From assembly GCA_020431825.1 (NCBI GenBank), contig JAGQHN010000009.1:1-64000 (forward strand): 64,000 nucleotides of DNA, written 5' to 3'. Shown here piece by piece: positions 42,916 to 62,817 of this stretch (positions are counted from its first letter, which is position 1; each line of letters starts with the position of its first letter). Under the pieces are notes generated by a model. That model was not told the DNA's origin, searched no databases, and was given only the letters and a program-made list of their open reading frames with translations. The translations under genes were made by a program, and so were the position numbers. Source of the stretch: Trueperaceae bacterium (GTDB lineage: Bacteria > Deinococcota > Deinococci > Deinococcales > Trueperaceae).

Positions 42916-44076
42916 TTAATGTGACCAGTGGGCATCGGTCCATTTCTGATCGGATTTTGAACTTTCCACAGTTTTCTCGATAAAGTGAACGCCCCTGGCA
43001 CCATCATAAACAGTAGGAAAGTCACCCTCGAGCTCTCCAAGTTCTTTCCCTGCTTGCTTAGCGCGAATAGCTTCAGCAACCCCTAGGTAGACATTGGCAA
43101 AGGCTTCTAAAAAAGCTTCGGGGTGACCGGCTGGTATACGGCTGGCTTTTGCCGCCGCGGCGCAAAGATAATCATTGCCACGTTTAAGGACTCGAGTGGC
43201 TTCGCCAAGAGGACGGTAAATCAGATAGTTAGGGTCTTCCTGATACCAGGCAAGTGAGCCTTTGGTGCCAAAGACTCTTAAACGGATGTCATTTTCGTCA
43301 CCAATTTGAATTTGGGAAGCAATCAGCACACCTTTAGCGCCTGAGGCAAAGCGTAGCAGCAAGTTGCCATCATCGTCTAACAGGCGTCCGGGTACAAAGG
43401 TGCTGATGTCAGCGCAGAGTTCAGAAAGCTCGAGCCTGGTAACGGTCGCTACTAGATTCTCGGCATGGGAACCAATATCGCCAATGCATCCTGCTGCGCC
43501 ACTTCTGGCTGGGTCGGTGCGCCACTCGGCCTGCTTGGCGCCAGTTTCTTCTAGCTTGGTGGCTAGCCAGCCCTGGTTGTACTCAACAATGACTTTGCGA
43601 ATTTCACCCAGTTCACCACTTTGCACCATGTGCCGTGCCTGTTTGACCATGGGGTAACCTGTGTAGTTATAAGTGACGCCAAAAACTACGCCAGTCTTTT
43701 CCACAGTTTTAATCAGATCATTGGCCTGCTCACTGGTATGTACCAAGGGTTTATCGCTAACCACATTTATACCCGCTTCAGCAAAAGCCTTGGCAACGGG
43801 GTAGTGCACATGGTTAGGCGTAACAATAGAAACCATGTCAATGCGCTCACCCTCGGGTCTGGCCAGTTCTTTTTCCAGCATTTCCTGCCAGCTGCCATAG
43901 TTGCGGTCATCGGCTAAGCCCAGGTCTTGCCCTGACGCCTTAGCTTTTTCTGGGGTTGAAGATAGGGCTCCGGCGACAAACTCATACTGACTGTCGAGAG
44001 CCATGGCCTTGCGGTGAACATCGCCAATAAAGGCGTCTCGTCCACCACCGACCATGCCGTATTTTAGTTTTTTCAT
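42916..44076 (-). CDS. Gfo/Idh/MocA family oxidoreductase
   Basis: A 386-aa NAD(P)-dependent dehydrogenase. The N-terminal Rossmann motif is [15 protein letters not shown], followed by [17 protein letters not shown] and SDKPLVHT (family EKP-type motif with the catalytic Lys). The C-terminal domain has DIGSHAENL with a conserved His. [11 protein letters not shown] and the long [24 protein letters not shown] segment are typical of a subgroup that oxidises sugars or inositols. GAAAGGAAAACG precedes the ATG. Last gene of the left catabolic operon. Confidence 0.9.
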
Positions 44077-44086
44077 CGTTTTCCTT

Positions 44087-44596
44087 TCATATAAGCCAAT
44101 TAACGATTTGGTTTATGTTTTGCTCGAGCTCCTGACGGGTATCTATAGTCAGACAGGGGCTCGTAATTGGATAATCAAAATCAGCTTCAGCTTTAGCCCA
44201 GTAGGTTTCAAAGTCAGCCCAGGTTTTCAGGATGTGTGCAGGGCGGCGTGTTCGGGTCTCGAGCCTTTCTTGCCAGGTTTTTTGATCTGTGCAGGTGCAG
44301 TCAATTATTCCCAGATCAAAGTCAAGTTCCTGACTAAACTCGAGGGCGCGTTTGTAGCCGATTTCGCCTCTCAGTGGACTGTCCACAATCACATTAAATC
44401 CCTGCATAATCAGACTTTCTGCCTGTTCAAACATGATGTCATAAGCGGCTGGTCCATAGACTTCAAGGTACTTAAGGAGTACATCTGATGCATCATCTTT
44501 GTCCACTACGGGCCAGCCCAAACGCTTACCCAGCGCCCTTGCTGTTGCACTTTTGCCTATCCCCATAGGGCCGCGAAAGAGCAACAGCTTTTGCAC
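44087..44596 (-). CDS. P-loop kinase-like AAA protein (small-molecule kinase)
   Basis: A 169-aa P-loop protein: Walker [18 protein letters not shown] (about 7-23), then [31 protein letters not shown], and a lid-like RLETRTRRP. The size and layout resemble shikimate/gluconate-type kinases. The start is GTG (44596) with only a 3-bp gap from the preceding stop and no Shine-Dalgarno, so coupling is likely. In this operon it may phosphorylate a catabolic sugar intermediate (inference). Confidence 0.7.
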
Positions 44597-44599
44597 TAT

Positions 44600-45598
44600 T
44601 TAGCTTTCAAACGCAGCATCAAACGCAACCGTTGAGGGTTTGAAATCAAGACGTTTGGTAAAAGCTGCTGATTCGGTAGCGCCGTGAACCCGGTCCATGC
44701 GGCTATCTTCCCACTCAATGCTTAGGGGGCCGTCATAGCCAATATCATTTAGTGCCACGATGATCTCTTCAAAATTGATATCGCCGCGACCCACACTGCG
44801 GAAATCCCAGAAACGGCGTGCGTCGCCAAAGTTGGTATGACCACCAAAGACGCCAGCTTCACCGTTGCCGTGACCCCACCAGACATCTTTCATATGGACA
44901 TGGTAAATGCGGTTAGCAAACTTGCGTATAAAGCCAACATAATCCACGCCCTGATAGCCCAGATGACTAGGGTCATAGTTAAAGCCAAAGCGTTTGTGGC
45001 CTTTAAGGGCAACCAGCGCGCGCTCAGCCGAGGCAATGTCAAAGGCGATTTCAGTTGGGTGAACTTCCAGAGCAAAGTTAATGTCATTCTCTTCAAAAAC
45101 TTCCAAAATGGGTTTCCAGCGGCGAGCGAAGTCTTTAAAGCCTTTATCCCAGTAATCCTGACTGGTAGGTGGGAAAGCGTAGATAGAGTGCCATATCGAT
45201 GAACCCGTAAAGCCATTAACGACCTTGACACCAAACTTGGCTGCGGCCCTAGCCGTATCTTTCATTTCTTCGGCGGCGCGGCTACGTACGCCAGCGGGCT
45301 TGCCGTCGCCCCAGACATGCTCGGGCACAATGGCCTTGTGGCGATCATCAATCAGATCACAAACGGCTTGACCTACCAGGTGGTTACTAATAGCGTGACA
45401 CTCGAGCCCATGCTTTTCTAAAAGCTTACGCTTATCTTTGACGTATTTATCATTCTTAAGCGCTTCTTGAACATTAAAGTGATCGCCCCAGCAGGCGAGC
45501 TCCAGGCCGTCATAGCCCATCTCTTTGGCTAAGGGTGCCAGTTCGCTTAAGGGCAAATCGGCCCACTGGCCGGTGAATAAGGTAACAGGTCTTGCCAT
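44600..45598 (-). CDS. Sugar phosphate isomerase/epimerase-like TIM barrel
   Basis: A 332-aa protein of the xylose-isomerase-like TIM-barrel family. Metal-ligand motifs are [36 protein letters not shown] and [12 protein letters not shown]. The combination with an adjacent Gfo/Idh/MocA dehydrogenase is typical of inositol or sugar-derivative catabolism. Shine-Dalgarno GGAGG is good. It differs clearly from the two psicose-epimerase-type proteins in this locus. Confidence 0.88.
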
Positions 45599-45734: not shown

Positions 45735-45770
45735 AAATCCCCTCCGGCTCCCCTTTGCAAAAGGGGAGGA
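45735..45770. repeat. Palindromic intergenic repeat, copy A
   Basis: AAATCCCCTCCGGCTCCCCTTTGCAAAAGGGGAGG-type sequence: CTCCCCTTT and AAAGGGGAG pair perfectly. Same class as the elements at 58.5 and 60.7 kb. It lies in the 297-bp gap between the creatininase and isomerase genes, which otherwise shows no gene. Confidence 0.65.
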
Positions 45771-45895: not shown

Positions 45896-46822
45896 TTAGA
45901 CTCTATTGATAAATTCACGTGTGTGAACATTGACTTTAATGTTCATAAGCTCGAGCACACCTCTGGCGGTGTGTTCTGAGAGTCGCTTGAAAGCTTCTTC
46001 ACCTTTTTCTTTGCTTGCCCTTAAAGGATTACCAATCACGCCACTTTCTATAAATTCGTGGTGATCCATGGGGAAATTAAAATAGGTATAGCCTTCAAAC
46101 TCAACATCTGGCATGCCGTCTTTCTTGCCAAAAGACTGCGGTAAAGACTCAGGGATGTGGGCTTTGGTAAAAGAAGCCCGCTCCATGCGCACCAGGTCGC
46201 TGTTCCAGGCCATGTCCTGTGAGGTCTCGAGTTCACTGGCGTGCCAGCCTGGGGTTTCCTCGGGGGGGTTTTCCATGAGTCCTTTTAAGATGCCAGTGTA
46301 GCGCTCCATATAGGGTTTAACAAAGCCTATGAGCGCCCCAGTTTCGTAGCGCAACTGCCGCAAGACGGGGTCAACCACCTTGATGTTAGAGCCGTGACCA
46401 TTGATAAAAATGATGCGGTTAAAACCGTGGTGTATCAGACTGCGCGCGGTGTCATACATGATGGCGAGTAAGGTCTGACTGCGCATAGTGATGGTGCCAC
46501 GCCCTAAGCCAGGTTCGTGCATGTGCTGTGGGCTATAGCCCATCCAGATAGGGGGCGAGTGTAAGACGGCGATGTGTTCAGCGACACGCCTCGAGACCTC
46601 TACTGCGGTAATGGTGTCAGTATAAAGCGGCAGGTGGGGGCCATGTTGCTCGAGGCTGGCCATGGGCACCAGAATGGTATCTTTAACCTTTAAATAATTG
46701 CCGATATCCGTTAGGGTCAGATTGCCCAAATCCCAGGAGATAAACTGACTGCGAAAGTCTTCGTCTCCTTCGGTCAGGTGGGGCACCTTGACTTTAAGTT
46801 GCTCACTACTGCTAGAAATCAT
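45896..46822 (-). CDS. Creatininase family protein
   Basis: A 308-aa member of the creatininase/FAPy-deformylase family of metal amidohydrolases. Family motifs: ILVPMASLEQHGPHLPLYTDT with Glu and His ligands, PPIWMGYSPQHM, HGFNRIIFINGHGSN and GWHASELETS. Members open cyclic amides or act as deformylases; in the sugar context the substrate is unknown. AAGGAG 7 nt before the ATG. It lies in the left catabolic operon after the UPF0261 gene. Confidence 0.9.
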   Translation of the reverse strand: MISSSSEQLKVKVPHLTEGDEDFRSQFISWDLGNLTLTDIGNYLKVKDTILVPMASLEQHGPHLPLYTDTITAVEVSRRVAEHIAVLHSPPIWMGYSPQHMHEPGLGRGTITMRSQTLLAIMYDTARSLIHHGFNRIIFINGHGSNIKVVDPVLRQLRYETGALIGFVKPYMERYTGILKGLMENPPEETPGWHASELETSQDMAWNSDLVRMERASFTKAHIPESLPQSFGKKDGMPDVEFEGYTYFNFPMDHHEFIESGVIGNPLRASKEKGEEAFKRLSEHTARGVLELMNIKVNVHTREFINRV

Positions 46823-46896: not shown

Positions 46897-48126
46897 CTAG
46901 GGAGATTTTTTCATTAGGTCAATAAAGATATTCGCTACCTTTTCTCCGAAGGAAGGGTCATTGACATGGTGTTTAAAAGTTTCTACTGGGATGTCTGAGC
47001 TAAGCTCTTGTTGCAGAGTTTTGCGAAAATCAGCATCTGCTTCAGGGTTCCAGAAGACACCGTCTGGCACATTCGGGATAGATAAACCTTCGCTGGGAAG
47101 GACAATGGAAACAGGTCCTTTGGCACTGTTTAGTTTGCGGGCAAAGATATGCCCTAGCTCTATCATCTCCTCATGGGTGGCGCGTACCAGAATATACTCA
47201 GGATTATGGTCATAGACCGGACGTCCGTAGAGCTCTTTAGGTACGGTTCCCGTATTCCAGACGCTAAAATCAATGCAGCCAGGCACAATGACCTGAGGTA
47301 GACCAAGCTCCCCTGCAACCTCGAGCCGTTTGGGGCCACCGTCATGAATGCCACCGACAAGCGGGTCATAAACTTCATTGGTTGTGAAGTCGATAATGCC
47401 GACAAACTGCCCTAATCGGGCAAGTTCCTCCATCGCTGGGCCGCCTACGCCATTAGAGTGAAAGATAACAGCTTCATAACCTGCATCTTTTAAGCGCTCC
47501 TTGGCTGCCATGACTGCTTTGGTGGTATTGCCAAGCATGGTCATGGCAACGTATTTTTCGTCATTGGCGGGTTTGGCTAGTGGGTGACCATGCTCGAGCA
47601 TGCCTTTAAGCGCTGCCGCAACGTTGTCAAAAATAGTACGGGCAATCGGGTTTAGGCCCAAAATGTCCACCACCGAGTGAACCACCATCATGTCTTTGGT
47701 GCCAACCAGCGGGTCAAAAAAGTGATGCCCTGAGGCAATCGGGGAAACCAGCACCTTAGGAACACCGAGGGGTAAGCCCATCATGGCGGCGGCTCCCATT
47801 ACCGCGCCTTCAGCCCCGCCCATGCTGACGGCAGCATCGAGTTTGCCTTTGGCAAAGAGGTCTTGCACCTGTTTTTGCAGGGCGTCGCGCATGCCTGCAA
47901 CCGCTCGTCCACGACTACCAGCATTTCTTAGGGTCTCAATGCTAGTGCCGCCAAAGCTAGCAACCTCAGCCCGACTGATATCGGGCACAATGCCCAGAGG
48001 TTCTCCTAAAATCCCTGAATCAATGACTGTCGTCTCTAGACCAAGTTTTTGTAACTGGTCACGTAAATAAGCGATTTCTGGCCCTTTGGTATCAAGGGTG
48101 CCGATGAGGATAACGGTCTTTGCCAT
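46897..48126 (-). CDS. UPF0261 (Tm-1-like ATP-binding domain) protein, copy 1
   Basis: A 409-aa protein of the UPF0261 family, the domain that forms the N-terminal, ATP-binding half of the tomato Tm-1 resistance protein. Signatures: the opening VILIGTLDTKGPEIAYL, AAVSMGGAEGAVMGAAAM, VVHSVVDILGLNPI, VIFHSNGVGGPAMEEL and GCIDFSVWNTG. Bacterial function is not established. It follows an epimerase gene exactly as copy 2 does on the right arm. The two copies share the GTLDTKG start and the SVVDI, FHxxGxGGxAME and DF/NFW blocks but are otherwise well diverged. Confidence 0.88.
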   Translation of the reverse strand: MAKTVILIGTLDTKGPEIAYLRDQLQKLGLETTVIDSGILGEPLGIVPDISRAEVASFGGTSIETLRNAGSRGRAVAGMRDALQKQVQDLFAKGKLDAAVSMGGAEGAVMGAAAMMGLPLGVPKVLVSPIASGHHFFDPLVGTKDMMVVHSVVDILGLNPIARTIFDNVAAALKGMLEHGHPLAKPANDEKYVAMTMLGNTTKAVMAAKERLKDAGYEAVIFHSNGVGGPAMEELARLGQFVGIIDFTTNEVYDPLVGGIHDGGPKRLEVAGELGLPQVIVPGCIDFSVWNTGTVPKELYGRPVYDHNPEYILVRATHEEMIELGHIFARKLNSAKGPVSIVLPSEGLSIPNVPDGVFWNPEADADFRKTLQQELSSDIPVETFKHHVNDPSFGEKVANIFIDLMKKSP

Positions 48127-48214: not shown

Positions 48215-49102
48215 TCACCTTATTAGAGGTAGTAAGGTCTGGGCGGTGGTTTCTACCAGCCAGCTATAGAACTCTTCAGAAAGCACGCCAGAGCCGTGAT
48301 CTTCGATAAATTTGAGCTGTTCAGCAGTGAGTTCTTTTTCGGCATTGGCGGTAGCATTTTTGTAAGGATTGGCGGGTGTGCGGTCTAAAGGGGCGACAAA
48401 TTCAACGGTTAAAGCACCGTCATAGCCAATTTCTTTGAGCATGCCAACAATGTCACGCCAGTTGAGTTGGCCCTGACCACAGGCCATGCGGTTATTGTCG
48501 GCAACATGAAAGTCATAAAGACGGCTGCCGGTATTTTGCAGTGCCTGTCTAAAATCAGCCTCTTCAATGTTCATGTGAAAGGCGTCAAGGCAAACGCCGC
48601 AGTCGGGGCCCACAGCTTGGGCAAGAGCCAGTGCCTGATCGTGACGGTTTAAGAAGTTAGTTTCAAAACGGTTGAGCGGCTCGAGCGCAATTCTTACCCC
48701 TTCTTTTTGGGCATGGTCATAGACTTCTTTTAAACCTTCAACGGCCCAGTTCCACTCGGTTTTTTCATCGGCCTGAGCATTGACCTTACCTACTTCCGAA
48801 GGCACGATGCTCATGATTTCGCCCTCGAGTTCTTTAACCATCGTTATAGAGTCCTTGAGATACTGAACGGTATTGGCCCGTCCAGCCTCATCAGCCTGAA
48901 TCAGGTCAAGTCCGGCAAACATAAGGCTAATCGAGCCCCAGCAGCGCAGCCCATTATCTTTTAGCAGTTGGCGCACTTCCTTGGTGTCGTATTTATGGGG
49001 CTCGCCGCCAATCTCGATACTTTTGTAGCCATATTTGGCTAGCCTTCGAATGGTGACCTCGATGGGTTCTGCTCTCATCCAGTTGTGCATTGATAGATGC
49101 AT
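48215..49102 (-). CDS. D-tagatose/D-psicose 3-epimerase-like TIM barrel, copy 1
   Basis: A 295-aa sugar epimerase-like protein; start ATG at 49102 with GGAGG 7 nt upstream (a longer frame to 49138 lacks this). The motifs IALEPLNRFETNFLNR (Glu ligand), VCLDAFHMNIEE (Asp), YDFHVADNNR (His) and LTVEFV (Glu) are those of the manganese site in the psicose/tagatose 3-epimerase group. It would invert a keto-sugar at C3 or isomerise a related sugar. Placed directly before UPF0261 copy 1. Confidence 0.88.
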   Translation of the reverse strand: MHLSMHNWMRAEPIEVTIRRLAKYGYKSIEIGGEPHKYDTKEVRQLLKDNGLRCWGSISLMFAGLDLIQADEAGRANTVQYLKDSITMVKELEGEIMSIVPSEVGKVNAQADEKTEWNWAVEGLKEVYDHAQKEGVRIALEPLNRFETNFLNRHDQALALAQAVGPDCGVCLDAFHMNIEEADFRQALQNTGSRLYDFHVADNNRMACGQGQLNWRDIVGMLKEIGYDGALTVEFVAPLDRTPANPYKNATANAEKELTAEQLKFIEDHGSGVLSEEFYSWLVETTAQTLLPLIR

Positions 49103-49146: not shown

Positions 49147-50241
49147 TTAGCCAAGATGATCTGCCAGCAGCTCATACAGCCCTTTAAGCTCGAGCCCATA
49201 GTCTGCGGCGTAGCGGTTTAACTGGCTCAGATCTGCTGAGTCCTCACAGTAGATGACTTCGGCACCTTGCTTTTGGGCATCCTCGAGCCTTGCTCTTGTG
49301 AGTTTTTCTGCCAGTTCAGGGTTACTAAACCAGGTGCTGCCGCTGCCCGTTGGATGGGTTCGTTCTTTACGCCAGAAAAGCTCGACTTGATTACCCGGTA
49401 AAATGGCCCCCAGTAAGTGGCGAGGGCTGTCAAAATCTTTAACTCTAAGCGCCTGACTTGGGTCAATATAGGCGTATGGGCGAGTATCAGCTGAAGGTTT
49501 AAAGCTTAATTTGCCGTTTTTATAGGCCTGAGTCAGCAGCGCTAGCAGGCTCGTTACCTTGACTTCTTCTGGAAAACTTAGTCCAAGCCGTTCAGCATAG
49601 ACATGCCTGCAGGTATAAAGGTCGGTCTGGCTCAGAACAATAAGCTCCTTAGCCTTAACAGCCTCGAGCTCAGTCATGAGCTGTTTCGCCTGTTTTTTGG
49701 CTTGCTCCATGAACCCCAGTGATAGGGCCAGGAAACCGCTACTTTTGCCCCTCGTAATTTCAGCAGGGCTGAGGGTTAAGGCTTTTATCAGGGTGTTTAC
49801 TGCGTTTACGCTTTCGGGCCAGAGGTACTGCATTTCATCGCTGATAAAGAGCGCATAGTCATTTTGTTCCAGAGCTGACTTAAACTCGGCGTCACCAAAA
49901 AATGAAGGGGTTTGCTCGAGTCGTTCTTTGAGCCGTGCAACGGTTTCAGGCATTTTTCCCTGGCTTAAAAGCTCACTTTTTACAGCGCTCACCGCTTCAG
50001 AAAAAGGCTGATCTGTGGCGCAGTGTGATCGGGCAACCCCGGCATCTGTTTCGCTGAACACCGTACGCAAACTGTCTTCATTCCAGCTAAGTAAGCCTTT
50101 ATGTTCTGAATAAATGGTCAGAGCAATGCCGTGTGGCGTGAGCGCCTCATTAAAACTAACGTGGCTTAGAGGGTCAGCGTGGCGGCACATCAGGCAGTAG
50201 CGACACTTTTCAAGGGTCTCGAGTGCTTCCTGGTAGGTCAT
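49147..50241 (-). CDS. Degenerate CCG-type (Fe-S)-binding partner of the GlcD-like flavoprotein
   Basis: A 364-aa protein (ATG at 50241, GAGG 8 nt upstream). Residues 13-19 read CRYCLMC, a partial iron-sulfur motif. The C-terminal part follows the layout of HdrD/GlcF CCG domains: AYIDPSQALR where the family has HDPC.LGR, FDSPRHLL, ILPGNQVELFWRKERTHPTGSGSTWFSN where the family has CCG-x-GG, and LEDAQKQGAEVIYCEDSADL where it has CP.C. So the domain is clear but most cluster-ligating Cys are gone. Adjacent to the FAD oxidase as in glycolate or lactate oxidases, it may be a structural or altered-cofactor subunit. Confidence 0.7.
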   Translation of the reverse strand: MTYQEALETLEKCRYCLMCRHADPLSHVSFNEALTPHGIALTIYSEHKGLLSWNEDSLRTVFSETDAGVARSHCATDQPFSEAVSAVKSELLSQGKMPETVARLKERLEQTPSFFGDAEFKSALEQNDYALFISDEMQYLWPESVNAVNTLIKALTLSPAEITRGKSSGFLALSLGFMEQAKKQAKQLMTELEAVKAKELIVLSQTDLYTCRHVYAERLGLSFPEEVKVTSLLALLTQAYKNGKLSFKPSADTRPYAYIDPSQALRVKDFDSPRHLLGAILPGNQVELFWRKERTHPTGSGSTWFSNPELAEKLTRARLEDAQKQGAEVIYCEDSADLSQLNRYAADYGLELKGLYELLADHLG

Positions 50242-50317: not shown

Positions 50318-51760
50318 TCACTTCACCCCTCCAAAACCAACTTTGCCGGGATTCATGATGCCGTTAGGGTCTAGGGCATTTTTAAGGCGCTCTAGCATAG
50401 GCCAGGCGTCACCATACTGACGGCGCATAAAGCGCGAGAGTTTTAAGCCAACGCCGTGATGCTCGTTGACCATGCCGCCATTTTCAAGCGCTGCGGTCAC
50501 GGCTGTATTCCAGATACGGTTATGCAGTTTGAGGGCTTCATGCGCATCTTCAGGAGGATTTTTTATGATAAAGCGGCTATAGACCATGGTGCCCCAGTGA
50601 AACCAGTGGGAAAAATGACCGATGTAGTCGACATCCCAGTCTTTATAGCTGCTCTCCACCGCTTCTTTTTGGGCGTAATAGAGCTTTTCAATATTGCTAA
50701 AAGTGGTCACCGATTCGGTGGTGCCATACATCCAGGGGAAGTGTAAACCCTTTGGTGGATAGTAAAAGTCATAGCGGTGCTGCCACCAGGCTTCACCAGG
50801 CTCACGGCCTAAATCCTGAGCACCTAAGTTTGCACAAATACTCAAGGCCTTTTGCTCTTGTAGCGCAGCTATGTCGGGGTCACCATCAAAACCAATCACC
50901 ATGTAAGCGCCATCAAACGCATAGCCCAGTACTTTTTTGACCTGAGAAAGCGTTGATTTCTGGTCATAGAGTCTTATGACGGTAGGCTCGAGCCGCTTAG
51001 TCACTATCAGTCTGCCTGCCTCGAGGGCTTTTGCCAGATCATCAAAAAGCAGGGCTCTAAACAGCCGAACCTCAGGCAGATAATCAAGTTGCATGGTGGC
51101 CTCAGTAATGACCCCCAGGGTGCCCTCTGAACCCAAAAATAGTCGGTAGAAATCGGGTCCTCCAGCGTGGTTCGGTACTTTGGGTGTACGAATGATTTCG
51201 CCATTCGGCAGTACCACCTGCATACTTAAAACCAGATCTTCAGCTTTGCCGTATTTGGTGCTAATGGTACCTGAACCTCTTGGAGCCAGGTAGCCCCCCA
51301 GGGTCGCGCAATTGGCCGAAGCCGGATAGTGCGGTAAGGTCAGATTTTTTTCGTTAACGGCCCACTCGAGCTGCGTACCATTTATGCCTGCCTGAGCGGT
51401 GACTGTGAGCGAGCGTTCATCAATCTCGAGTACTTTATTAAGCCGCTTGACATCGAGCATAATGCCACCAAAAATCGGTACGGCACCCCCCTGTGAACCA
51501 GAGCCGCCGCCCCAGGGAATCACCGGGATTTTATAGCTGTTGGCAATTTTAAGAATCTCGGCAATTTCTTCACTGGTCCCCGGACGCACGATATAGTCAG
51601 GGGGTCTGAGTTGTTCACCCCGGTCAAGCCACATTTGCGGTAACCAGAACCAGTCGGTTGAGTAGACCAGTTTTTCGCTCTCGCTGTTACTGATATAAGC
51701 TGCGCCAACGATTTCCTCGAGTTCGCTATAGATCATGTCTGGTACTAGGCCAGTGCGCAT
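50318..51760 (-). CDS. FAD-linked oxidase, GlcD-like
   Basis: A 480-aa flavoprotein of the FAD-binding type 4 (glycolate/lactate oxidase) family. The FAD-binding domain shows VRPGTSEEIAEILKIAN, IPVIPWGGGSGSQGGAVP and the PAS-ANCATLGGYLAPRGSGT loop; the C-terminal domain ends HHGVGLKLSRFM...LKNALDPNGIMNPGK. It oxidises a 2-hydroxyacid or alcohol to a keto compound and hands electrons to a partner, likely the neighbouring Fe-S-type protein. GAGGA before the ATG. Second gene of the left operon. Confidence 0.92.
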   Translation of the reverse strand: MRTGLVPDMIYSELEEIVGAAYISNSESEKLVYSTDWFWLPQMWLDRGEQLRPPDYIVRPGTSEEIAEILKIANSYKIPVIPWGGGSGSQGGAVPIFGGIMLDVKRLNKVLEIDERSLTVTAQAGINGTQLEWAVNEKNLTLPHYPASANCATLGGYLAPRGSGTISTKYGKAEDLVLSMQVVLPNGEIIRTPKVPNHAGGPDFYRLFLGSEGTLGVITEATMQLDYLPEVRLFRALLFDDLAKALEAGRLIVTKRLEPTVIRLYDQKSTLSQVKKVLGYAFDGAYMVIGFDGDPDIAALQEQKALSICANLGAQDLGREPGEAWWQHRYDFYYPPKGLHFPWMYGTTESVTTFSNIEKLYYAQKEAVESSYKDWDVDYIGHFSHWFHWGTMVYSRFIIKNPPEDAHEALKLHNRIWNTAVTAALENGGMVNEHHGVGLKLSRFMRRQYGDAWPMLERLKNALDPNGIMNPGKVGFGGVK

Positions 51761-52580: not shown

Positions 52581-52611
52581 TTGTATACAGATTCAATTAA
52601 TTTGTATACAA
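52581..52611. promoter_or_regulatory. Paired GntR-type operators at the regulator promoter
   Basis: Two copies of TTGTATACA(A/G) at 52581-52590 and 52602-52611, centres 21 bp (two helical turns) apart. The second is a perfect 10-bp palindrome and abuts the -10 box of the minus-strand promoter. Confidence 0.7.
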
Positions 52612-52725: not shown

Positions 52726-52754
52726 TTGACACCTTATGCTGGCATTTGTATAAT
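52726..52754 (+). promoter_or_regulatory. Consensus sigma-70-type promoter of the ABC importer operon
   Basis: Perfect TTGACA (52726-52731), exactly 17 bp, perfect TATAAT (52749-52754). Transcription should begin about 52761, giving a leader of roughly 155 nt before the ATG at 52917. Confidence 0.9.
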
Positions 52755-52769: not shown

Positions 52770-52780
52770 ATGTATACAAC
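52770..52780. promoter_or_regulatory. GntR-type operator just downstream of the importer promoter
   Basis: ATGTATACAAC, the same TGTATACA core as the operators at 52581-52611, at about +10 to +20 relative to the predicted start. Typical repression position. Confidence 0.65.
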
Positions 52781-54230: not shown

Positions 54231-54244
54231 ACCTTTGAACTAGG

Positions 54245-55273: not shown

Positions 55274-56271
55274 TGGCACTCAGGTCTCCAAGCGCTCCCA
55301 AGCAAGATGTCGTTATTTCAACCAGAGTAGATAAGGTTGGTCTAAGACCTGCCCTGTTGCGCAATTTTCGTGCGGGTCTGGCCGTGGTTGCCGCTCTCAT
55401 TATGTTACTCCCTGCTGTCTGGATGAGCATGACCGCTTTTAAATCGCGCCCGGATGCAGTTTCTGTGCCGCCGAAAGTTTTTTTTACGCCTACTTTAGAA
55501 GGCTTTGTTAGCTTGCTGACGGACCGTCGCCAATTATCCAATACCGAACTCGAGGACTACAAACAGCGTACGGACCTAAACTGGATGGATAAACTGGCTC
55601 TTAAACGTGGTCAGGCGATTATTGGCTGGAGTGAATTTCCAAAACATTTGCGTAATTCCATTATTATTTCAGTCACGTCAACCTTCTTGTCTATCTTTTT
55701 TGGCGTGCTTGCGGCTTATGCCTTTAGTCGCTTTAAGATTCCGGGTGAAAGCGACCTGCTGTTCTTTATTTTGAGTACCCGGATGTTACCGCCGGTTGTT
55801 GTCACTATTCCTATCTTTTTGATGTACCGCGCCCTGGGCCTCTTTGACACCCACATTGGCCTGATTTTGCTCTACACAGCGTTTAACCTATCTTTTGCCG
55901 TCTGGCTCATGAAAGGGTTTATCGATGAAATTCCTAAAGAATACGAAGAAGCTGCGCTGGTAGACGGCTATACTCGCTTACAGGCTTTTCGGAAAATCGT
56001 CTTACCGCAGGCAATTACTGGTATTGCAGCGACAACGGTATTTTCCTTTATTTTTGCCTGGAACGAATATGCCTTTGCGCTTATGCTCACTTCAAGCGCG
56101 GCACGTACCGCCCCTCCCAGTCTGCCCTCGAGGATTGGTACAGGGGGCGTAGAATGGGCTGCGATTGCCGCAGGTTCGCTCCTGTTTCTGATTCCCGCCA
56201 TCATTCTGACGTTTGCACTTCGTAAGCACTTGCTTAGAGGTGTGACCTTCGGGGCGATTCGTAAAGGATAA
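55273..56271 (+). CDS. Carbohydrate ABC transporter permease 2 (MalG/UgpE type)
   Basis: A 332-aa permease: first helix VVAALIMLLPAVWMSMTAFKS, EAA loop EYEEAALVDGYTRLQAFRKIVLPQA, C-terminal helix ending LRKHLLRGVTFGAIRKG. It carries an insertion of roughly 60 residues in the first periplasmic loop (about 70-130, LTDRRQLSNTELEDYKQRTDL...GQAIIGWSEFP), longer than usual MalG proteins. Start overlaps the previous stop (TGATG). Confidence 0.93.
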   Translation: MALRSPSAPKQDVVISTRVDKVGLRPALLRNFRAGLAVVAALIMLLPAVWMSMTAFKSRPDAVSVPPKVFFTPTLEGFVSLLTDRRQLSNTELEDYKQRTDLNWMDKLALKRGQAIIGWSEFPKHLRNSIIISVTSTFLSIFFGVLAAYAFSRFKIPGESDLLFFILSTRMLPPVVVTIPIFLMYRALGLFDTHIGLILLYTAFNLSFAVWLMKGFIDEIPKEYEEAALVDGYTRLQAFRKIVLPQAITGIAATTVFSFIFAWNEYAFALMLTSSAARTAPPSLPSRIGTGGVEWAAIAAGSLLFLIPAIILTFALRKHLLRGVTFGAIRKG

Positions 56272-56274
56272 ATT

Positions 56275-57363
56275 GTGGCGACCATCGAACTCAAGCAAGT
56301 AGAAAAGCGCTTTGGCGAAGCCTACGCCGTTAAGCCGATGGATATGACGATTAATAATGGCGATTTTGTGGTTTTGCTTGGCCCTTCTGGCTGTGGCAAG
56401 ACGACAACGCTGCGGATGATTTCTGGGCTCGAGTCGGTCTCGAGTGGCATTATTAATTTCAATGACAAAGACGTCACCTGGCTGCACCCAAGCGAACGCG
56501 ACATTGCCTTTGTCTTTCAGTTTTTTGCCCTTTATTCGCACATGACCTGCCGTGAAAATATCGCTTTTCCGCTGCGTGCCAGTGGCGAAGAGGGTGCTGA
56601 AATCGACCGCAAGGTCAAGCGAGTTGCTGAGATGCTCCGTATTGAGCATTTGCTTAAATCACGACCAGGTGGACTTAGTGGGGGAGATCAGCAGCGGGTG
56701 GCCCTGGCAAGGGCGCTGGTGCGTAAACCTGCGGCGTTTCTTATGGATGAACCCCTTGGTGCCCTTGACGCCGAGTTTCGTGAAACCATGCGGGCAGAAA
56801 TAAAACGGCTGCACCTCGAGCAAAATGCCACCACGGTTTATGTAACACACGATCAGATTGAGGCTATGGCGATGGGTGACAAAATTGTGGTCATGTCGGC
56901 TGCTGAGATTCAGCAAGCCGGGACCCCCCTCGAGGTTTACTATGACCCAGCTAATCTTTTTGTAGCGCGCTTTATTGGTAGTCCGGGTATGAATCTGGTT
57001 GAGGGAAGTTACAGCGAGGGCAAAATCAAACTTGGCGATGCCAATATCTACTGTGTACCGCAGGATTGGCGAGCGAGTTTAGATACGACCATTGGTACGG
57101 GTGAGGTTGTTGTGGGCTTCAGACCTGAGGCGGTGCAGTTTTCCGCGCAGGGGCAACTTGGTTCGTCGGTGTATGCTAATGATCTTCATGGGAGCTACAG
57201 CATGCTGCATCTCGAGCTTATTAAGGACAATATTGTCAATGCTCGAGCTGACCGCCGTGACCGTCATCAGATGGGAGATAGCATCAAATTTGACATTGAC
57301 CCGGAGCAGGTGAGATTTTTTGACCCGAAGACGGAAAAAGCCTTGCAGAAGGTGGCGCTATGA
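56275..57363 (+). CDS. ABC transporter ATPase 1 (MalK/UgpC type)
   Basis: A 362-aa ATPase starting at GTG (56275) with AAAGGA upstream. Walker A GPSGCGKTT, Q-loop VFQFFALYSHMT, signature LSGGDQQRVALARAL, Walker B AAFLMDEPLGALDAEF and H-loop VYVTHDQIEAMA are all intact; the C-terminal half is the TOBE-type regulatory region. The D-loop and Q-loop differ from those of the second ATPase. It ends in a 4-bp overlap with that gene. Confidence 0.94.
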   Translation: MATIELKQVEKRFGEAYAVKPMDMTINNGDFVVLLGPSGCGKTTTLRMISGLESVSSGIINFNDKDVTWLHPSERDIAFVFQFFALYSHMTCRENIAFPLRASGEEGAEIDRKVKRVAEMLRIEHLLKSRPGGLSGGDQQRVALARALVRKPAAFLMDEPLGALDAEFRETMRAEIKRLHLEQNATTVYVTHDQIEAMAMGDKIVVMSAAEIQQAGTPLEVYYDPANLFVARFIGSPGMNLVEGSYSEGKIKLGDANIYCVPQDWRASLDTTIGTGEVVVGFRPEAVQFSAQGQLGSSVYANDLHGSYSMLHLELIKDNIVNARADRRDRHQMGDSIKFDIDPEQVRFFDPKTEKALQKVAL

Positions 57364-58433
57364 GCCGCATTCGCCTAGAGACAATCAGTAAAACCTTTGG
57401 TGAAGAGCTGGCTTTAAGCAAGGTTAGTCTGGACATACAGGACAATGAATTTTTTGTTTTGCTCGGTCCAACAGGGGCAGGTAAAACAACCACCCTGCGC
57501 GTTATTGCGGGTCTGGAAAAACAGGACGCTGGTCATGTCTACTTTGATGAAAGTCTGGTTGACAGCATTCCACCAGCAGACCGCGATACCGCTTTTGTGT
57601 TTCAGCAGTACTCGCTCTACCCCAATATGACGGTTTACGAAAATCTGGCCTTTCCCCTTAAGTCACCCCTGCGAAATTTTGATGCCGCCGATATCGACAG
57701 ACGCATCAAGGATGCCGCTGAAAAACTACGTATCACCCATTTGCTCGAGCGCAAAACAGCGCGCCTCTCAGGTGGGGAAATGCAGCGGGTATCGATTGGT
57801 CGGGCGATTGTCAGAAAGCCTAGGGTTTTTCTAATGGATGAGCCTCTGTCCAACCTGGACGCCAAACTCCGTGAATCTTTACGGGTTGAGCTTAAACATT
57901 TGCAAAAAACCCAGGAAGTCACCACTCTATTTGTAACGCATGACCAGATTGAGGCGCTGACTATGGCAGATCGGCTGGCGGTCTTAAACAATGGAAAAAT
58001 CATACAGATAGGTAGTCCTGATGATATTTACGACCGTCCTGCCAGTACCTTTGTGGCGCAGCTGGTTGGTACGCCCCGAATCAATTTGTTTGAGACCGAA
58101 TTTGCGGGTGGCAAGTTGCATAGTTTAAAAAATGCTTTAGAGTTTGACGCTACCGGGCTCGAGCCTGCCTCCAAAACATTGGTGGGTATTCGTCCGGAAG
58201 ACATCAGCATAAGTGCTCAAGGCACTTTTCATGCCAAGGTTGTCCTTAAAGAACCTCTGGGTGTTGAGACCATCGTTCATTTGCAAACTGAAGATAATAA
58301 GCTTCTGGCAATCGTGCCGGGCATCAGCCATCACCAGATTGGTGAAACGGTAAAGTTTGAGGTCAATAGTGACAGGCTGCATTTCTTTACGACTGAGGGT
58401 GAGCGAATTGAGGCTAAAGGAGTGGCCGCATGA
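57360..58433 (+). CDS. ABC transporter ATPase 2 (MalK/UgpC type)
   Basis: A 357-aa ATPase with Walker A GPTGAGKTT, Q-loop VFQQYSLYPNMT, signature LSGGEMQRVSIGRAI, Walker B VFLMDEPLSNLDAKL and H-loop LFVTHDQIEALT, then a TOBE region. Both ATPases have complete sites, so the importer may use a heterodimer, as in the GlpS-GlpT pair of some glycerol ABC importers. Most CUT1 systems use one ATPase twice. Overlaps the first by ATGA. Confidence 0.94.
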   Translation: MSRIRLETISKTFGEELALSKVSLDIQDNEFFVLLGPTGAGKTTTLRVIAGLEKQDAGHVYFDESLVDSIPPADRDTAFVFQQYSLYPNMTVYENLAFPLKSPLRNFDAADIDRRIKDAAEKLRITHLLERKTARLSGGEMQRVSIGRAIVRKPRVFLMDEPLSNLDAKLRESLRVELKHLQKTQEVTTLFVTHDQIEALTMADRLAVLNNGKIIQIGSPDDIYDRPASTFVAQLVGTPRINLFETEFAGGKLHSLKNALEFDATGLEPASKTLVGIRPEDISISAQGTFHAKVVLKEPLGVETIVHLQTEDNKLLAIVPGISHHQIGETVKFEVNSDRLHFFTTEGERIEAKGVAA

Positions 58434-58463: not shown

Positions 58464-58552
58464 GAAATCCCCCCCGACCCAAGAGTATTCTCGCTTTGCT
58501 CGGATCCTTTATAAAAGGGGGGAGGTTGAGCGAAGCGCAAATCGAGGGGATT
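58464..58552. repeat. Palindromic intergenic repeat, copy B
   Basis: Outer arms AATCCCCCCC and GAGGGGATT enclose a second pairing (TCGCTTTGCTC with GAGCGAAGCG). Same class as copies A and C. It fills the 151-bp gap before the epimerase gene and may fold in the operon mRNA. Confidence 0.65.
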
Positions 58553-58584
58553 GAACGTTACACATCAAATTCGCTGAGGCTGAC

Positions 58585-59439
58585 ATGGTTTTAAGTTTTG
58601 GAGTTAATACCTGGGTCTGGGTTTCACCCACTACAACTGAGCGCTTTGCACAGTATGTGCCAAAAGTTAAAGCGATGGGTTTTGACATGATTGAATTTGG
58701 GGTAGAAGACACCAGCGCCCTTGACTACAAAAAGGCTGCCGAGATTTTAAATGACTATGACTGTGGTATCAGTGTGGCTGCAGCGATGGGACCGGACCGA
58801 GATTTAATTATTGCTGATAGGGGTATTCAGCAAAATGGGCTTGCCTATCTTAAGCACTGCATCGATGCCTGTCATACCCTTGGAGCACACAACCTGATTG
58901 GTCCTATGTACTCAGCGGTGGGGCGTGTCTGGGAACAAACGCCAGAAGGTCGTGAACGCGATAGCGAAACGCTGGTGAAGCATCTCAAAGAATTATCTTC
59001 TTATGCCGCAGATAAAGGGGTGGTGCTTTGCCTCGAGCCCCTCAATCGGTTTGAGACCAGCTTTCTTAATACCACCCAGCAGATGAACGAAATCATTGAC
59101 CGGGTTGATCACCCTGCCTGTAAAGTTCTGCTTGATACCTTTCATATGAACATCGAAGAAAAATCGCTGGGTGATGCCATACGGCTTTGTGGTCATAGAC
59201 TTGCCCATTTTCATGCCTGTGAAAATGACCGGGGCGCACCTGGTAGTGGCAATGTTACCTGGAATGATGTGGCGGAAGGTCTAAAGGACATTAAATATGA
59301 GGGCCCAGTCGTTATCGAGTCGTTTACCAGCGAAGTCAAATCTATTGCCAGAGCGGCTGCTATCTGGCGCAAGTTTGAGTCTTCTCAAGATGCTCTGGCA
59401 GAAAATGGTCTTAGATTTCTCAAGGGACTACTTGCATGA
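58585..59439 (+). CDS. D-tagatose/D-psicose 3-epimerase-like TIM barrel, copy 2
   Basis: A 284-aa epimerase-like protein with LCLEPLNRFETSFLNTT (Glu ligand), VLLDTFHMNIEEKS (Asp), AHFHACENDRGAPGSG (His) and VVIESF (Glu), the metal site of the tagatose/psicose 3-epimerase group. GAGG precedes ATG. It overlaps UPF0261 copy 2 by 4 bp, so epimerase and UPF0261 are produced together, as on the left arm. Confidence 0.9.
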   Translation: MVLSFGVNTWVWVSPTTTERFAQYVPKVKAMGFDMIEFGVEDTSALDYKKAAEILNDYDCGISVAAAMGPDRDLIIADRGIQQNGLAYLKHCIDACHTLGAHNLIGPMYSAVGRVWEQTPEGRERDSETLVKHLKELSSYAADKGVVLCLEPLNRFETSFLNTTQQMNEIIDRVDHPACKVLLDTFHMNIEEKSLGDAIRLCGHRLAHFHACENDRGAPGSGNVTWNDVAEGLKDIKYEGPVVIESFTSEVKSIARAAAIWRKFESSQDALAENGLRFLKGLLA

Positions 59440-60644
59440 AAACCGTCTTGCTTATCGGTACGCTGGACACCAAAGGTCAGGAATATCTTTTTGTTAAAAA
59501 CCTGATTGAGGCACGGGGGCATAAAGCACTGCTTATGAATGCAGGGGTCTTTGAAGCGACGATTTCTGCTGACATAAGTGCAGAAGAGGTTGCTCGTGCG
59601 GGTGGGGAGAGCCTCGAGTCCTTACGCAGCAAAAGCGACCGGGGTCACGCGGTGACCATTATGAAGCGCGGTGTTGAAGCTGTAACCAAAGACTTGTTTG
59701 ACAAAGATGCCATACAAGCGGTTCTGGGTTTAGGCGGTTCAGGCGGTACGATTCTGGCAACGGCAGGCATGCGTACCTTGCCTGTAGGGGTTCCTAAACT
59801 GATGGTTTCAACCCTGACTTCTGGCGATATTGCGCCCTACGTAGATATAAAAGATATCTGCATGATGTATTCGGTGGTAGATATTGCCGGGATTAACCAG
59901 CTCTCGAGCCAGATTTTAAGCAATGCTGCCGGCATGATTTGTGGAGCACTCGAGCAAGCTATTCCTGAAATGGAAAGCAAACCTCTTATTGCCGCTACCA
60001 TGTTTGGGGTTACTACCCCTTGTGTGACCAGGGTCAGGGAGAAGCTCGAGTCTGAGGGCTACGAAGTCCTGATTTTTCACGCTACGGGTAGTGGTGGTCG
60101 GGCGATGGAAGGGCTGATAAGAGACGGCTTTATAACCGCAGTCGCTGACATTACTACGACGGAATGGTGCGACGAGCTGGTCGGGGGCGTGTTATCTGCC
60201 GGGAAAGATAGGTTAGAAGCTGCCGCAAACGCGGGTATTTCTCAGGTTGTCTCTGTCGGTGCGCTGGATATGGTCAACTTCTGGGCGATGAATACTGTGC
60301 CCGAAAGGTTTAAAGACCGCAAATTTTACAAGCACAACGAAAACGTTACGCTTATGCGTACCACAGCCGAGGAAAACGCGCAACTTGGAAAAATCATTGC
60401 CGAAAAAATAAATGCTGCGACAGGGCCAACCATGCTTATCTTGCCTCTAAAAGGCGTAAGTATGATTGATGCTGAAGGACAGGCATTTTATAGTCCTGAG
60501 GCAGACGCGGCCCTTTTTGCAAGTTTGCGTGAACACCTTGCAAAGCACATTAAACTCGTTGAACTTGATGCGCATATCAATGATGATGCTTTTGCCAGCG
60601 CTGTTGTGACTGAACTTCTCAGGTTGATGAAAGAGGCTGGCTAA
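59436..60644 (+). CDS. UPF0261 (Tm-1-like ATP-binding domain) protein, copy 2
   Basis: A 402-aa paralogue of the left-arm protein: VLLIGTLDTKGQEYLFV start, VLGLGGSGGTILATAGM, MYSVVDIAGINQLS, LIFHATGSGGRAMEGL, and VGALDMVNFW. ATGA overlap with the epimerase gene. In Tm-1 and related proteins this domain is fused to a TIM barrel; here the barrel is the separate next gene. Likely an ATP- or nucleotide-using enzyme of this pathway, reaction unknown. Confidence 0.88.
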   Translation: MKTVLLIGTLDTKGQEYLFVKNLIEARGHKALLMNAGVFEATISADISAEEVARAGGESLESLRSKSDRGHAVTIMKRGVEAVTKDLFDKDAIQAVLGLGGSGGTILATAGMRTLPVGVPKLMVSTLTSGDIAPYVDIKDICMMYSVVDIAGINQLSSQILSNAAGMICGALEQAIPEMESKPLIAATMFGVTTPCVTRVREKLESEGYEVLIFHATGSGGRAMEGLIRDGFITAVADITTTEWCDELVGGVLSAGKDRLEAAANAGISQVVSVGALDMVNFWAMNTVPERFKDRKFYKHNENVTLMRTTAEENAQLGKIIAEKINAATGPTMLILPLKGVSMIDAEGQAFYSPEADAALFASLREHLAKHIKLVELDAHINDDAFASAVVTELLRLMKEAG

Positions 60645-60775: not shown

Positions 60776-61615
60776 ATGCCTTTTATTCCAAGAAGTGAAG
60801 CCTTAAAACGGTTACGCGCACAGATTGCCAGCGGTCAACCGCTTATTGGGGCGGGGGCAGGTACAGGCATTTCGGCTAAGTTTGTCGAGCGGGGCGGCGT
60901 GGATATTATTATCATTTATAATTCCGGGCGCTACCGTATGGCGGGCCGGGGTAGTCTGGCAGGCATTATGCCTTATGGCGATGCCAATGCCATTGTTGTA
61001 GAGATGGGCGGTGAGGTTTTGCCCGTGGTGAAAGACACCATGGTGCTAGCAGGTGTGTGTGGCACCGACCCCTTTCGCCTGATGCCAGTTTTTCTAAAAC
61101 AGCTTAAAGAGATGGGCTTTGATGGCGTTCAGAACTTTCCCACGGTAGGTTTGATTGACGGGACGTTTCGGGCAGGACTCGAGGAAACTGGCATGAGCTA
61201 TGACCTGGAAGTTGACATGGTACGCATGGCTCATGATCTGGATATGCTCACCTGCCCTTATATTTTTAGCCCTGAAGATGCTGTCAAGATGACCAAAGCT
61301 GGCGCAGATGTGCTGGTACCGCATATGGGCCTAACTACCAAGGGAACGATTGGTGCACAGACTGCGCTTACGCTTGACGATTGTGTCAAGAAAATTCAGG
61401 ATATGCATGACGCTGCCAAAGACATTAACCCCGAGGTTATGGTGATTTGTCATGGTGGCCCGATTGCCGAGCCCGAAGATGCGCAGTACATACTCGATAA
61501 CACAGAGGGGATTGTGGGCTTTTTTGGAGCCTCGAGCATGGAGCGCCTTGCTGTAGAACCTGCCATTGAAAATCAAGCCAGACGCTTTAAGGAAATGAAA
61601 TTTAGTAAAAAGTAG
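60776..61615 (+). CDS. Phosphoenolpyruvate-hydrolase-like TIM barrel (Tm-1 C-terminal domain type)
   Basis: A 279-aa protein of the phosphoenolpyruvate-hydrolase-like family, the TIM barrel that forms the C-terminal half of plant Tm-1. Motifs: [17 protein letters not shown] near the N-terminus, [59 protein letters not shown] and [24 protein letters not shown] before ATG. Placed after UPF0261 copy 2, the two probably form a complex. Enzymatic reaction in bacteria is not settled; the name reflects fold similarity. Confidence 0.85.
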
Positions 61616-61674
61616 AAAGTGAATAGTGGTTAGTGATTGGTAAAAACTCTATCCACGCTTACCGGAGGTAAGAC

Positions 61675-62085
61675 ATGAAAACCATAGGACGCTGCAAAAT
61701 TACTCGTAATGAAGATGTTGACCAGCTTCGCTTTGACTGGGGAACATTACATTTTTTAAGTGATGAAAATGCTACAGGCGCCAAAAGTTTTAGCTTTGGT
61801 CATGTTGAACTGGCGGTTGGCAAAGGCCACGTGCGCCACAACCACCCTGACGCCGATGAAATCATTTATGTCATGTCTGGTGAAGGTGACCAGATGCTGG
61901 ATGATGAGCCTGCGGTTCATGTCAAAAAAGGCGATTCTATCTGGATTCCTAAAGGTATTTATCACTCAACCATTAATCAGGGAAGCGAGCCCATGCATTT
62001 ACTGGTGGTTTATGCGCCTGCCGGGGCTGAGCAGGTGCTGTGGCAAGATCCTGGCGTAACCGTCTTAAAGCCCGGTCAGCACTAG
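61675..62085 (+). CDS. Cupin-domain protein
   Basis: A 136-aa single cupin: motif 1 VGKGHVRHNHPDADEIIYVMSGEG and motif 2 VHVKKGDSIWIPKGIYHSTINQG, with three His and a Glu for metal. Such cupins in sugar loci may be isomerases (for example of sugar acids), mutarotases or binding proteins. GGAGG 7 nt before the ATG. Tenth-kilobase continuation of the right operon. Confidence 0.9.
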   Translation: MKTIGRCKITRNEDVDQLRFDWGTLHFLSDENATGAKSFSFGHVELAVGKGHVRHNHPDADEIIYVMSGEGDQMLDDEPAVHVKKGDSIWIPKGIYHSTINQGSEPMHLLVVYAPAGAEQVLWQDPGVTVLKPGQH

Positions 62086-62094
62086 GAGAAGGCC

Positions 62095-62817
62095 ATGGCA
62101 ACAAAAACAACTAATTACTGGGGAGTCACTAGAGCCTTGGGAGGCTGGGCACTAGGAGCATTTTTGTTCGGCCTCCTGTTTAAACCCATTATCCAAAACA
62201 TTTTTCCTGCTGACCTGCGGGATGATGTGATCATCTTGGCTTTGCCTTTTGTTGCCTACTTTGCTGCTATATTGCTGCTGTTTATTCTGGGCATCAATCT
62301 AATATCCCAGCGCTTACATTTATCTATTCCTAACCGCACACACCGCGCCGTTGAGTACACCATTATTGCAGGCATACTGTTTGGCATCTTTGCCCTTTTT
62401 CAACCCTGGACAATCGGTCCTTATCGCTTTGGTTTTGGCCTACTACTCTTATCGACGCTGGCGTTCATTCTCTGGAGTCACGTTATGCCTAGACGTGCCA
62501 AGGATGATAGTTTGCAACCCCCTTATACAAAAAATGCGGTTACGGCCGGGCTTATTGTTGGTCTGCTTATTACTGCGCTGATTGCTGGGGGCTTTGCGTT
62601 AACGAGTCGCCCTAAAGAACCTTATGGTATTCGGGAACGCCAGTGGAACTTTATGCGTGAAGATCAGAAAGTAGAAATAGCTACTAAGGCCAACCGCGAT
62701 TATTTTGCCGGGTATTTGCCCTTCTTTCTGGTTTATGGCTTGCTTCCGGGGCTGGTTGGCTTTTTCCTGATTAGAGAGTTTGCGACCCCTAAAGCTTCGG
62801 AGGAAGCAAGCGTTTAA
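62095..62817 (+). CDS. Hypothetical six-helix membrane protein
   Basis: A 240-aa integral membrane protein, about six helices (near 15-28, 45-70, 85-105, 110-128, 148-168, 205-222). I do not recognise its family. AGGAG precedes the ATG and only 9 bp separate it from the cupin gene, so it is the last gene of the right operon. Possibly a transport or membrane-anchor component of the pathway. Confidence 0.65.
   Translation: MATKTTNYWGVTRALGGWALGAFLFGLLFKPIIQNIFPADLRDDVIILALPFVAYFAAILLLFILGINLISQRLHLSIPNRTHRAVEYTIIAGILFGIFALFQPWTIGPYRFGFGLLLLSTLAFILWSHVMPRRAKDDSLQPPYTKNAVTAGLIVGLLITALIAGGFALTSRPKEPYGIRERQWNFMREDQKVEIATKANRDYFAGYLPFFLVYGLLPGLVGFFLIREFATPKASEEASV

Follow-up and report, generated by a model that had tools for sequence, protein, structure and literature searches.

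A cross-phylum, apparently co-regulated catabolic gene set with two UPF0261 proteins in a Trueperaceae bacterium

The stretch of DNA analysed here, referred to as the window, comprises 64,000 nucleotides (positions 1-64000 of the 70.9 kb contig C338) from the draft genome of a Trueperaceae bacterium (5.6 Mb in 338 contigs). Between positions 42916 and 62817 it carries two divergent arms, each with a tagatose-epimerase-type gene next to a gene of the UPF0261 family. Together they are a real cross-phylum, apparently co-regulated catabolic set, in which known protein families occur in an undescribed combination. The 20 cluster proteins were scanned with Pfam and NCBIfam models, using equivalog cut-offs for known pathways. 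Every gene that an earlier, sequence-only reading had named is present and scores far above the Pfam cut-offs: the epimerases, the UPF0261 pair, the oxidase, the creatininase, the Gfo/Idh dehydrogenase, the cupin and the importer, as well as the phosphoenolpyruvate (PEP)-hydrolase-like barrel that it had assigned to the right arm. Beyond these, we recognised a GntR/FCD regulator, a second IolE-like TIM barrel (TIM3), an iron-sulphur protein resembling GlcF and a membrane protein that is conserved. The left arm (minus strand) and right arm (plus strand) contain:

42916..44076, minus strand: Gfo/Idh/MocA dehydrogenase, 386 amino acids (PF01408/PF22725)
44600..45598, minus strand: TIM3, an IolE-like TIM barrel of the type of 2-hydroxy-3-keto-glucal hydratase (PDB 8RO4)
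45896..46822, minus strand: creatininase-family metal hydrolase (PF02633, 198 bits)
46897..48126, minus strand: UPF0261_L, predicted ATP-dependent small-molecule kinase of the creatininase-linked clade (PF06792/PF23189)
48215..49102, minus strand: TIM_L, tagatose/IolO-like keto-sugar 3-epimerase (PF01261)
about 49147..50241, minus strand: GlcF-like iron-sulphur electron-transfer partner, start revised (CxxCxxC and further Cys)
50318..51760, minus strand: GlcD-like FAD oxidase of the VAO family (PF01565/PF02913)
51813..52505, minus strand: GntR/FCD transcription regulator (PF00392/PF07729)
52917-58433, plus strand: whole ATP-binding cassette (ABC) importer, with binding protein, two permeases and two ATPases
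52917..54230, plus strand: CUT1 solute-binding protein (PF01547)
54371..55273, plus strand: ABC permease 1 (PF00528)
55273..56271, plus strand: ABC permease 2 (PF00528)
56275..57363, plus strand: ABC ATPase 1, UgpC/MalK-like (PF00005, OB/TOBE domains)
57360..58433, plus strand: ABC ATPase 2, UgpC/MalK-like (PF00005, TOBE domains)
58585..59439, plus strand: TIM_R, tagatose/psicose 3-epimerase-like (PF01261)
59436..60644, plus strand: UPF0261_R, predicted ATP-dependent small-molecule kinase of the barrel-linked group (PF06792/PF23189)
60776..61615, plus strand: PEP-hydrolase-like TIM barrel, TBST (PF09370, 435 bits against a cut-off of 34)
61675..62085, plus strand: small cupin (PF07883)
62095..62817, plus strand: conserved membrane protein, with orthologues in close relatives and Chloroflexota loci

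Both UPF0261 proteins match the two family models over their full length, with 168/230 bits for UPF0261_L and 211/334 bits for UPF0261_R against a cut-off of 27, and the UPF0261_R gene overlaps TIM_R by 4 bp. TIM_R matches D-tagatose 3-epimerase structures with E about 3e-43. For TIM_L, the ATG at 49102 is the more likely start, since the resulting 295 amino acids equal the orthologue length, rather than the TTG at 49138. TIM3 matches PDB 8RO4 with E=1.4e-41 and 2ZDS with 1.2e-119, and its orthologues in 13 loci are 51-70% identical. The GlcD-like oxidase is predicted to be a 2-hydroxy-acid or sugar-acid dehydrogenase, and the GlcF-like gene, whose product has no Pfam match, adjoins or sits near it in the loci where it is present. 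Orthologues of the regulator occur in the related and cross-phylum loci compared. The binding protein is 71-76% identical to those of genome G017 and locus L059, and 51-52% identical to the rhizobial ones. No Pfam model matches the membrane protein. Two intergenic gaps of the cluster (45740-45770 and 58468-58560) hold similar inverted sequences rich in GGGGAG/CCCCTC, perhaps a dispersed repeat of the genome.

When 84,980 species genomes were scanned with a UPF0261_L alignment, Chloroflexota, Rhodothermota/Balneolota and Actinomycetota proved to hold orthologues (identity about 48-75%). The sequence-only reading had named a lack of co-conservation elsewhere as what would overturn it; instead, the genes are kept together across phyla. 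In several Chloroflexota loci (L038, L040, L051-L053, L068), the genes of both arms run in the same direction in single operons, which hold the importer, TIM_R, UPF0261_R, the barrel, the membrane protein, TIM3, a Gfo/Idh dehydrogenase, GlcD, TIM_L, UPF0261_L and the creatininase, with GlcF and the cupin also in some of them. The Gfo/Idh protein of these operons is only 25-31% identical to that of the window. The window-type enzyme is found again in G002 and G003, adjoining the left module (73-74%), and, also with that module, in G124 (66%), where it is divergent from the GntR gene. Cupin orthologues likewise adjoin the left module, rather than the right, in G002 and G003 (67%), and one of 47% identity is found in rhizobia. 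In G017, a genome consisting of one contig, the importer's binding protein accompanies the left module, and its permeases and ATPase are found about 0.5 Mb away beside the right module; because this importer is split over both loci, the two very likely act together. These observations support the two arms as one co-conserved pathway unit, kept in Deinococcota, Chloroflexota, Rhodothermota/Balneolota and Actinomycetota and partly in rhizobia.

Within 298 genomes of one class, with an orthologue of UPF0261_L defined by at least 48% identity over the full length, UPF0261_L and the creatininase occur in identical sets of 20 genomes; a 21st carries no more than a fragment of UPF0261_L. The barrel is present in 17 of these 20 genomes versus 44 of the 278 others. 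Among the 64 loci with sufficient flank, a creatininase lies near UPF0261_L in 19/19 and near UPF0261_R-only in 0/45, and the creatininase and UPF0261_L genes overlap by 4 bp in seven loci. UPF0261_L and the creatininase are thus a near-obligate pair. For UPF0261_R, 37 of 49 loci have the barrel gene no more than 2.5 kb away.

Two further arrangements were seen beside the left module. In a locus of the relative G002 (L032, 14936-15271), a fragment 63% identical to ATPase 2 adjoins the module and is apparently an importer remnant at the ancestral divergent position. In a Chloroflexota locus (L041, 1390-9852), which may represent an anaerobic form of the route, TIM_L, UPF0261_L and the creatininase are joined to an aldehyde ferredoxin oxidoreductase, a protein of the lactate-racemase type and a DeoC-like aldolase that carries 4Fe-4S domains.

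The epimerase-UPF0261 block had been described as a duplicated module, a description that does not hold. UPF0261_L and UPF0261_R are 39% identical and TIM_L and TIM_R 35%, and in the tree UPF0261_L belongs to a supported monophyletic, creatininase-linked clade (100/96, 19 rows, several phyla), while UPF0261_R falls in a broader barrel-linked group. On these identities and the separate cross-phylum clade we rejected a local duplication; the sequences mark the two genes as ancient paralogues. A right-type copy, linked or unlinked, is also carried by 15 of the 18 UPF0261_L genomes inspected (five relatives and thirteen others). Other lineages of the family have other neighbours. A separate clade without the barrel (L018, L019, L020, L024; Roseobacter and Rhizobiaceae plasmids) adjoins an aldehyde dehydrogenase and class III aminotransferases, and MarK/9MPY, discussed below, is placed near it on a long branch. 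On plasmid pTF28b of Thermus thermophilus (L016, 11110-13846), creatininase, UPF0261 and class II aldolase genes are consecutive and accompanied by a tricarboxylate-type transporter, a cluster related to yet different from that of the window, also within Deinococcota.

The function of UPF0261, previously called unsettled, can now be narrowed. The AlphaFold model of UPF0261_R (predicted local distance difference test score 95) has as its nearest solved structures Tm-1 and both chains of PDB 9MPY, titled 'Saro_1862, a UPF0261 domain protein from Novosphingobium aromaticivorans with bound acetovanillone'. According to PMC13101465, acetovanillone catabolism in this organism begins with the single-component kinase MarK, and title, organism, ligand and authorship suggest that Saro_1862 is MarK. 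9MPY keeps 25 of the 27 residues invariant among 54 UPF0261 relatives, and this conservation, along with the MarK link, makes it probable that both window copies are ATP-dependent small-molecule kinases. Among the invariant residues are a DTK triplet (11-13 in UPF0261_R) and H215. The two-domain fold and a catabolic role are also held in common; MarK differs in its distant sequence, its phenolic substrate and the lack of a known barrel or creatininase partner. The two-component kinases of other acetovanillone degraders, HpeHI and AcvAB, belong to a different, PEP-synthase-like family. The acetovanillone (Acv/Hpe/MarK) pathway uses a biotin-dependent carboxylase and a phosphatase, and neither domain occurs among the 20 cluster proteins. 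Fold neighbours beyond Tm-1 and 9MPY (UDP-GlcNAc 2-epimerase-like and glycosyltransferase folds with template-modelling scores of 0.2-0.3, and a few lipases) were uninformative. The open-access literature searched yielded nothing on UPF0261 function beyond the Tm-1 work and the MarK citation, and a Pfam tally around barrel-linked UPF0261 loci revealed no single context that would point to a common substrate class.

Two other kinase-like genes, which the sequence-only reading had counted with the locus, are present:

44087..44596, minus strand: AAA_33 ATPase/kinase-like protein, accessory (PF13671)
62974..63978, minus strand: PfkB-family kinase, doubtful member (PF00294)

Neither, however, is part of the conserved set. 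No orthologue of the AAA_33 gene was found in the other loci compared (relatives and cross-phylum loci), and the PfkB gene, which lies outside the interval 42916-62817, has an equivalent position only in the same-genus genome G001, with a 74% identical protein in L029. Since the cluster occurs outside the genus without them, both were rejected as pathway kinases, and the UPF0261 proteins are the likely ones.

The partners of the UPF0261 proteins hint at the chemistry that might follow. The barrel matches PDB 2P10 (Mll9387), and its fold neighbours include methylisocitrate lyase and KPHMT, plus IGPS and TIM. A role as carbon-carbon lyase partner of UPF0261_R is possible, although we consider it somewhat less probable than its opposite. 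According to a published analysis (PMC5028733), UPF0261 is found in 97% of the bacterial genomes that carry the barrel, the sequences co-evolve, and the two are fused in plants, all of which is consistent with consecutive or joint steps. Plant Tm-1-like proteins thus combine in one chain what the window encodes in separate genes; they differ in being known for inhibition of tobamovirus replication and in having no linked importer or epimerases. As to the epimerases, inspection by eye rather than a reference alignment shows in both the motifs LEPLNRFE, DAFHMN/DTFHMN and FH...NR/NDR and a late Glu, which may correspond to the Glu, Asp, His, His, Arg and Glu of the 3-epimerase metal and catalytic sites.

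The divergent promoter (52506-52916) offers a further link between the arms:

52582..52589, no strand: operator-like palindrome TGTATACA, site 1, in the divergent intergenic region
52603..52610, no strand: operator-like palindrome TGTATACA, site 2, 21 bp from site 1
52726..52754, plus strand: sigma-70 promoter TTGACA-17-TATAAT for the right arm, 12/12 match
52771..52778, no strand: operator-like palindrome TGTATACA, site 3, just downstream of the -10 hexamer

All three copies of TGTATACA in the 64 kb window lie inside this promoter region. G017 retains all three, with 22 bp between the first two, and an equivalent promoter arrangement is visible there. Where the modules are unlinked, the palindrome accompanies both: in G117 it lies 57 bp before the GntR gene of the left module (L048) and 518 bp before the binding protein of the right module (L124), and in G124 it stands before both modules (L128, L097). 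In L047 and L103, it precedes GlcD and also the Gfo/Idh-TIM3 pair. Over 30 loci, 17 copies were observed versus 6.7 expected, a moderate enrichment only, and TGTATACA ranks second of 64 palindromes of like composition; all 17 copies are located 35-518 bp upstream of a cluster gene. The weight of this evidence comes from the positions and not from the total count. A search for palindromic operators of greater length found none that is shared. Both arms appear to form one GntR regulon, with TGTATACA as putative operator.

Alongside what was observed directly (the presence of the genes, their cross-phylum co-conservation, the near-obligate pairings and the shared operator-like site), we propose that the locus is a single GntR-controlled catabolic regulon for a carbohydrate-like substrate, with UPF0261 kinases and their cleaving partners, a proposal that we consider evenly poised between right and wrong. 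The CUT1-type importer would bring in a carbohydrate-like compound, probably a glycoside or a derivative of a sugar acid. TIM3 and the Gfo/Idh dehydrogenase would process a keto- or unsaturated sugar intermediate, the GlcD/GlcF-like oxidase would convert a 2-hydroxy acid to a keto acid, and the two tagatose-3-epimerase-like enzymes would set the stereochemistry next to the keto group. Phosphorylation of the products by the two UPF0261 proteins would come next, and each would work with a cleaving enzyme of its own: the barrel as lyase for UPF0261_R, and the creatininase-family hydrolase for UPF0261_L. Cleavage by barrel and creatininase, and the substrate, are what we infer here; the order of the steps, the lyase role and the substrate class are weakly inferred. 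The more specific version, in which a keto-sugar acid is phosphorylated by the UPF0261 kinases and then cut by the barrel and the creatininase hydrolase in an undescribed route, with UPF0261 and barrel as a general kinase-lyase unit, is tentative and rather doubtful as a whole.

A rhizobial version of the locus bears on the substrate. The 717-742 kb stretch of Sinorhizobium meliloti pSymA has the orthologous importer, UPF0261_R (49%), barrel, cupin and TIM_L (58.6%) in common with the window and lacks GlcD/GlcF, UPF0261_L and the creatininase. As a TIM_L orthologue there accompanies a UPF0261_R orthologue, modules seem to have been mixed and matched around one uptake system. The stretch also encodes a D-2-hydroxyacid dehydrogenase and a member of the enolase superfamily that scores with models of arabinonate and galactonate dehydratases; this combination favours sugar acids as substrate. 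Because the set is kept across phyla, its substrate should be common in nature.

That no textbook sugar route uses this set, as had been stated, agrees with the comparisons made here: membership in the inositol, levoglucosan, Otn, GlcDEF and acetovanillone systems was rejected on their defining features, with equivalog cut-offs missed, and the open-access literature searched yielded no published pathway with this gene set. The four-carbon acid-sugar pathway (OtnI-OtnK-OtnC) has an isomerase-kinase-cleavage logic in common with the cluster, and the Thermus locus L016, which pairs UPF0261 with a class II aldolase and a TIM barrel, follows a similar logic. In the window, the OtnI model NF043033 gives 52 and 46 bits versus 325, and the cluster has no DUF1537 (OtnK) or class II aldolase (OtnC) domain. 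The GlcDEF system is missed as well (TIGR00387, 196 versus 568 bits; no separate GlcE gene in the cluster), as is the D-psicose 3-epimerase equivalog NF051856 (134 bits for TIM_L and 206.5 for TIM_R versus 300).

Among the nearest known systems is the Thermotoga myo-inositol pathway (IolG, IolM, IolN, IolO), with which the cluster shares a Gfo/Idh dehydrogenase, a creatininase-family hydrolase and an IolO-like epimerase. A cyclitol could accordingly undergo two dehydrogenations, ring opening by the creatininase, epimerisation and phosphorylation by UPF0261. The creatininase does match the IolN model, and TIM_L and TIM_R the IolO model, but with 90 bits versus 245 (NF041098) and 151 and 146 versus 300 (NF041099), the scores are far under the cut-offs; IolG gives 59 versus 355 (TIGR04380). 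Plain creatininase and MftE models outscore IolN, the GlcD/GlcF-type oxidase points to a 2-hydroxy acid, and the window adds GlcD/GlcF, UPF0261 and the barrel to the Thermotoga set. We regard a cyclitol route as unlikely.

Equally improbable in our estimate is a main route of non-hydrolytic 3-keto-glycoside breakdown (oxidation, elimination, hydration, reduction), with UPF0261 as a side branch for a released sugar acid. A route with a 2-hydroxy-3-keto-glucal hydratase step has been described (PMC10628242, PMC7676230), and the levoglucosan/Agrobacterium systems (LgdA-B1-B2-C; GlycDH-AtOGE-AtHYD-Gfo) have a TIM-barrel hydratase-like protein and a Gfo/Idh enzyme in common with the window. TIM3 is a homologue of this hydratase, the Gfo/Idh protein is related to levoglucosan dehydrogenase, and ThuA genes lie near the Rhodothermales cores. 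On the other hand, the dehydrogenase reaches only 110 bits against a cut-off of 650 (NF052479), no eliminase homologue was recognised in the window cluster, which instead has extra kinase, hydrolase and oxidase genes, several loci lack TIM3 and Gfo/Idh, and no pair is as constant as UPF0261_L and the creatininase.

The UPF0261 protein and the barrel might also carry out another ATP-linked reaction, or act together in regulation or as a scaffold, which is what the names 'ATP-binding' and 'signal transduction' suggest. Genomic contexts of the family are diverse, Tm-1 was solved in complex with a helicase, and a single member is structurally tied to a pathway. The MarK identification, the conserved residues and the consistent placement among catabolic enzymes argue the other way, and we give this possibility little credence. 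Two unrelated operons placed back to back, sharing a neighbourhood alone, are very improbable and were rejected: G002 and G003 do have a right-type UPF0261/barrel pair of another subclade elsewhere and L097 has the right module alone, but single Chloroflexota operons, the operator-like site before unlinked modules and the split G017 importer tie the arms together.

Several points weigh against the proposed kinase-and-cleavage regulon. To our knowledge, no substrate, intermediate or activity has been described for any protein of the cluster. G124 has UPF0261_L and TIM_L without a creatininase, whose place is occupied by a Gfo/Idh enzyme and a sugar-isomerase-looking protein, and Rhodothermales retain only GlcD-GlcF-UPF0261_L-creatininase at this locus. 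The co-occurrence p values were calculated without correction for phylogeny, and most of the genomes are metagenome-assembled. The 8-bp core TGTATACA was picked post hoc, spotted by eye after the palindrome search and then counted. The identification of Saro_1862 with MarK was drawn from titles and authorship, and a kinase function may not transfer, because MarK acts on a phenol and the contexts of UPF0261 elsewhere are diverse. The lyase role of the barrel is weak, as its nearest folds mix lyases with isomerases and synthases.

Elsewhere in the window, a large chemosensory/twitching-type cluster is read from the sequence on the minus strand (17963-28365), with two CheY-like regulators, a 1067-amino-acid CheA-type hybrid with Hpt, two methyl-accepting proteins and a CheW-like protein. 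Positions 40260-42503 encode a 747-amino-acid multihaem cytochrome-like protein whose halves, each with several CxxCH motifs and an NVHYFAA block, look like an internal duplication. At 34001-36000, a strong local AT skew (+0.23) covers the beginning of a minus-strand gene for a peptide importer binding protein and an MFS gene.

The locus connects each of two distinct UPF0261 lineages with a different partner, and for a family best known for its part in plant virus resistance it offers a chemistry that can be tested (a kinase with a lyase or hydrolase), with the rhizobial version on S. meliloti pSymA available in a genetically tractable host. If UPF0261 and the barrel do form a general kinase-lyase unit, the ancestral job of Tm-1 would be small-molecule catabolism, an original role for its family that can be put to the test.

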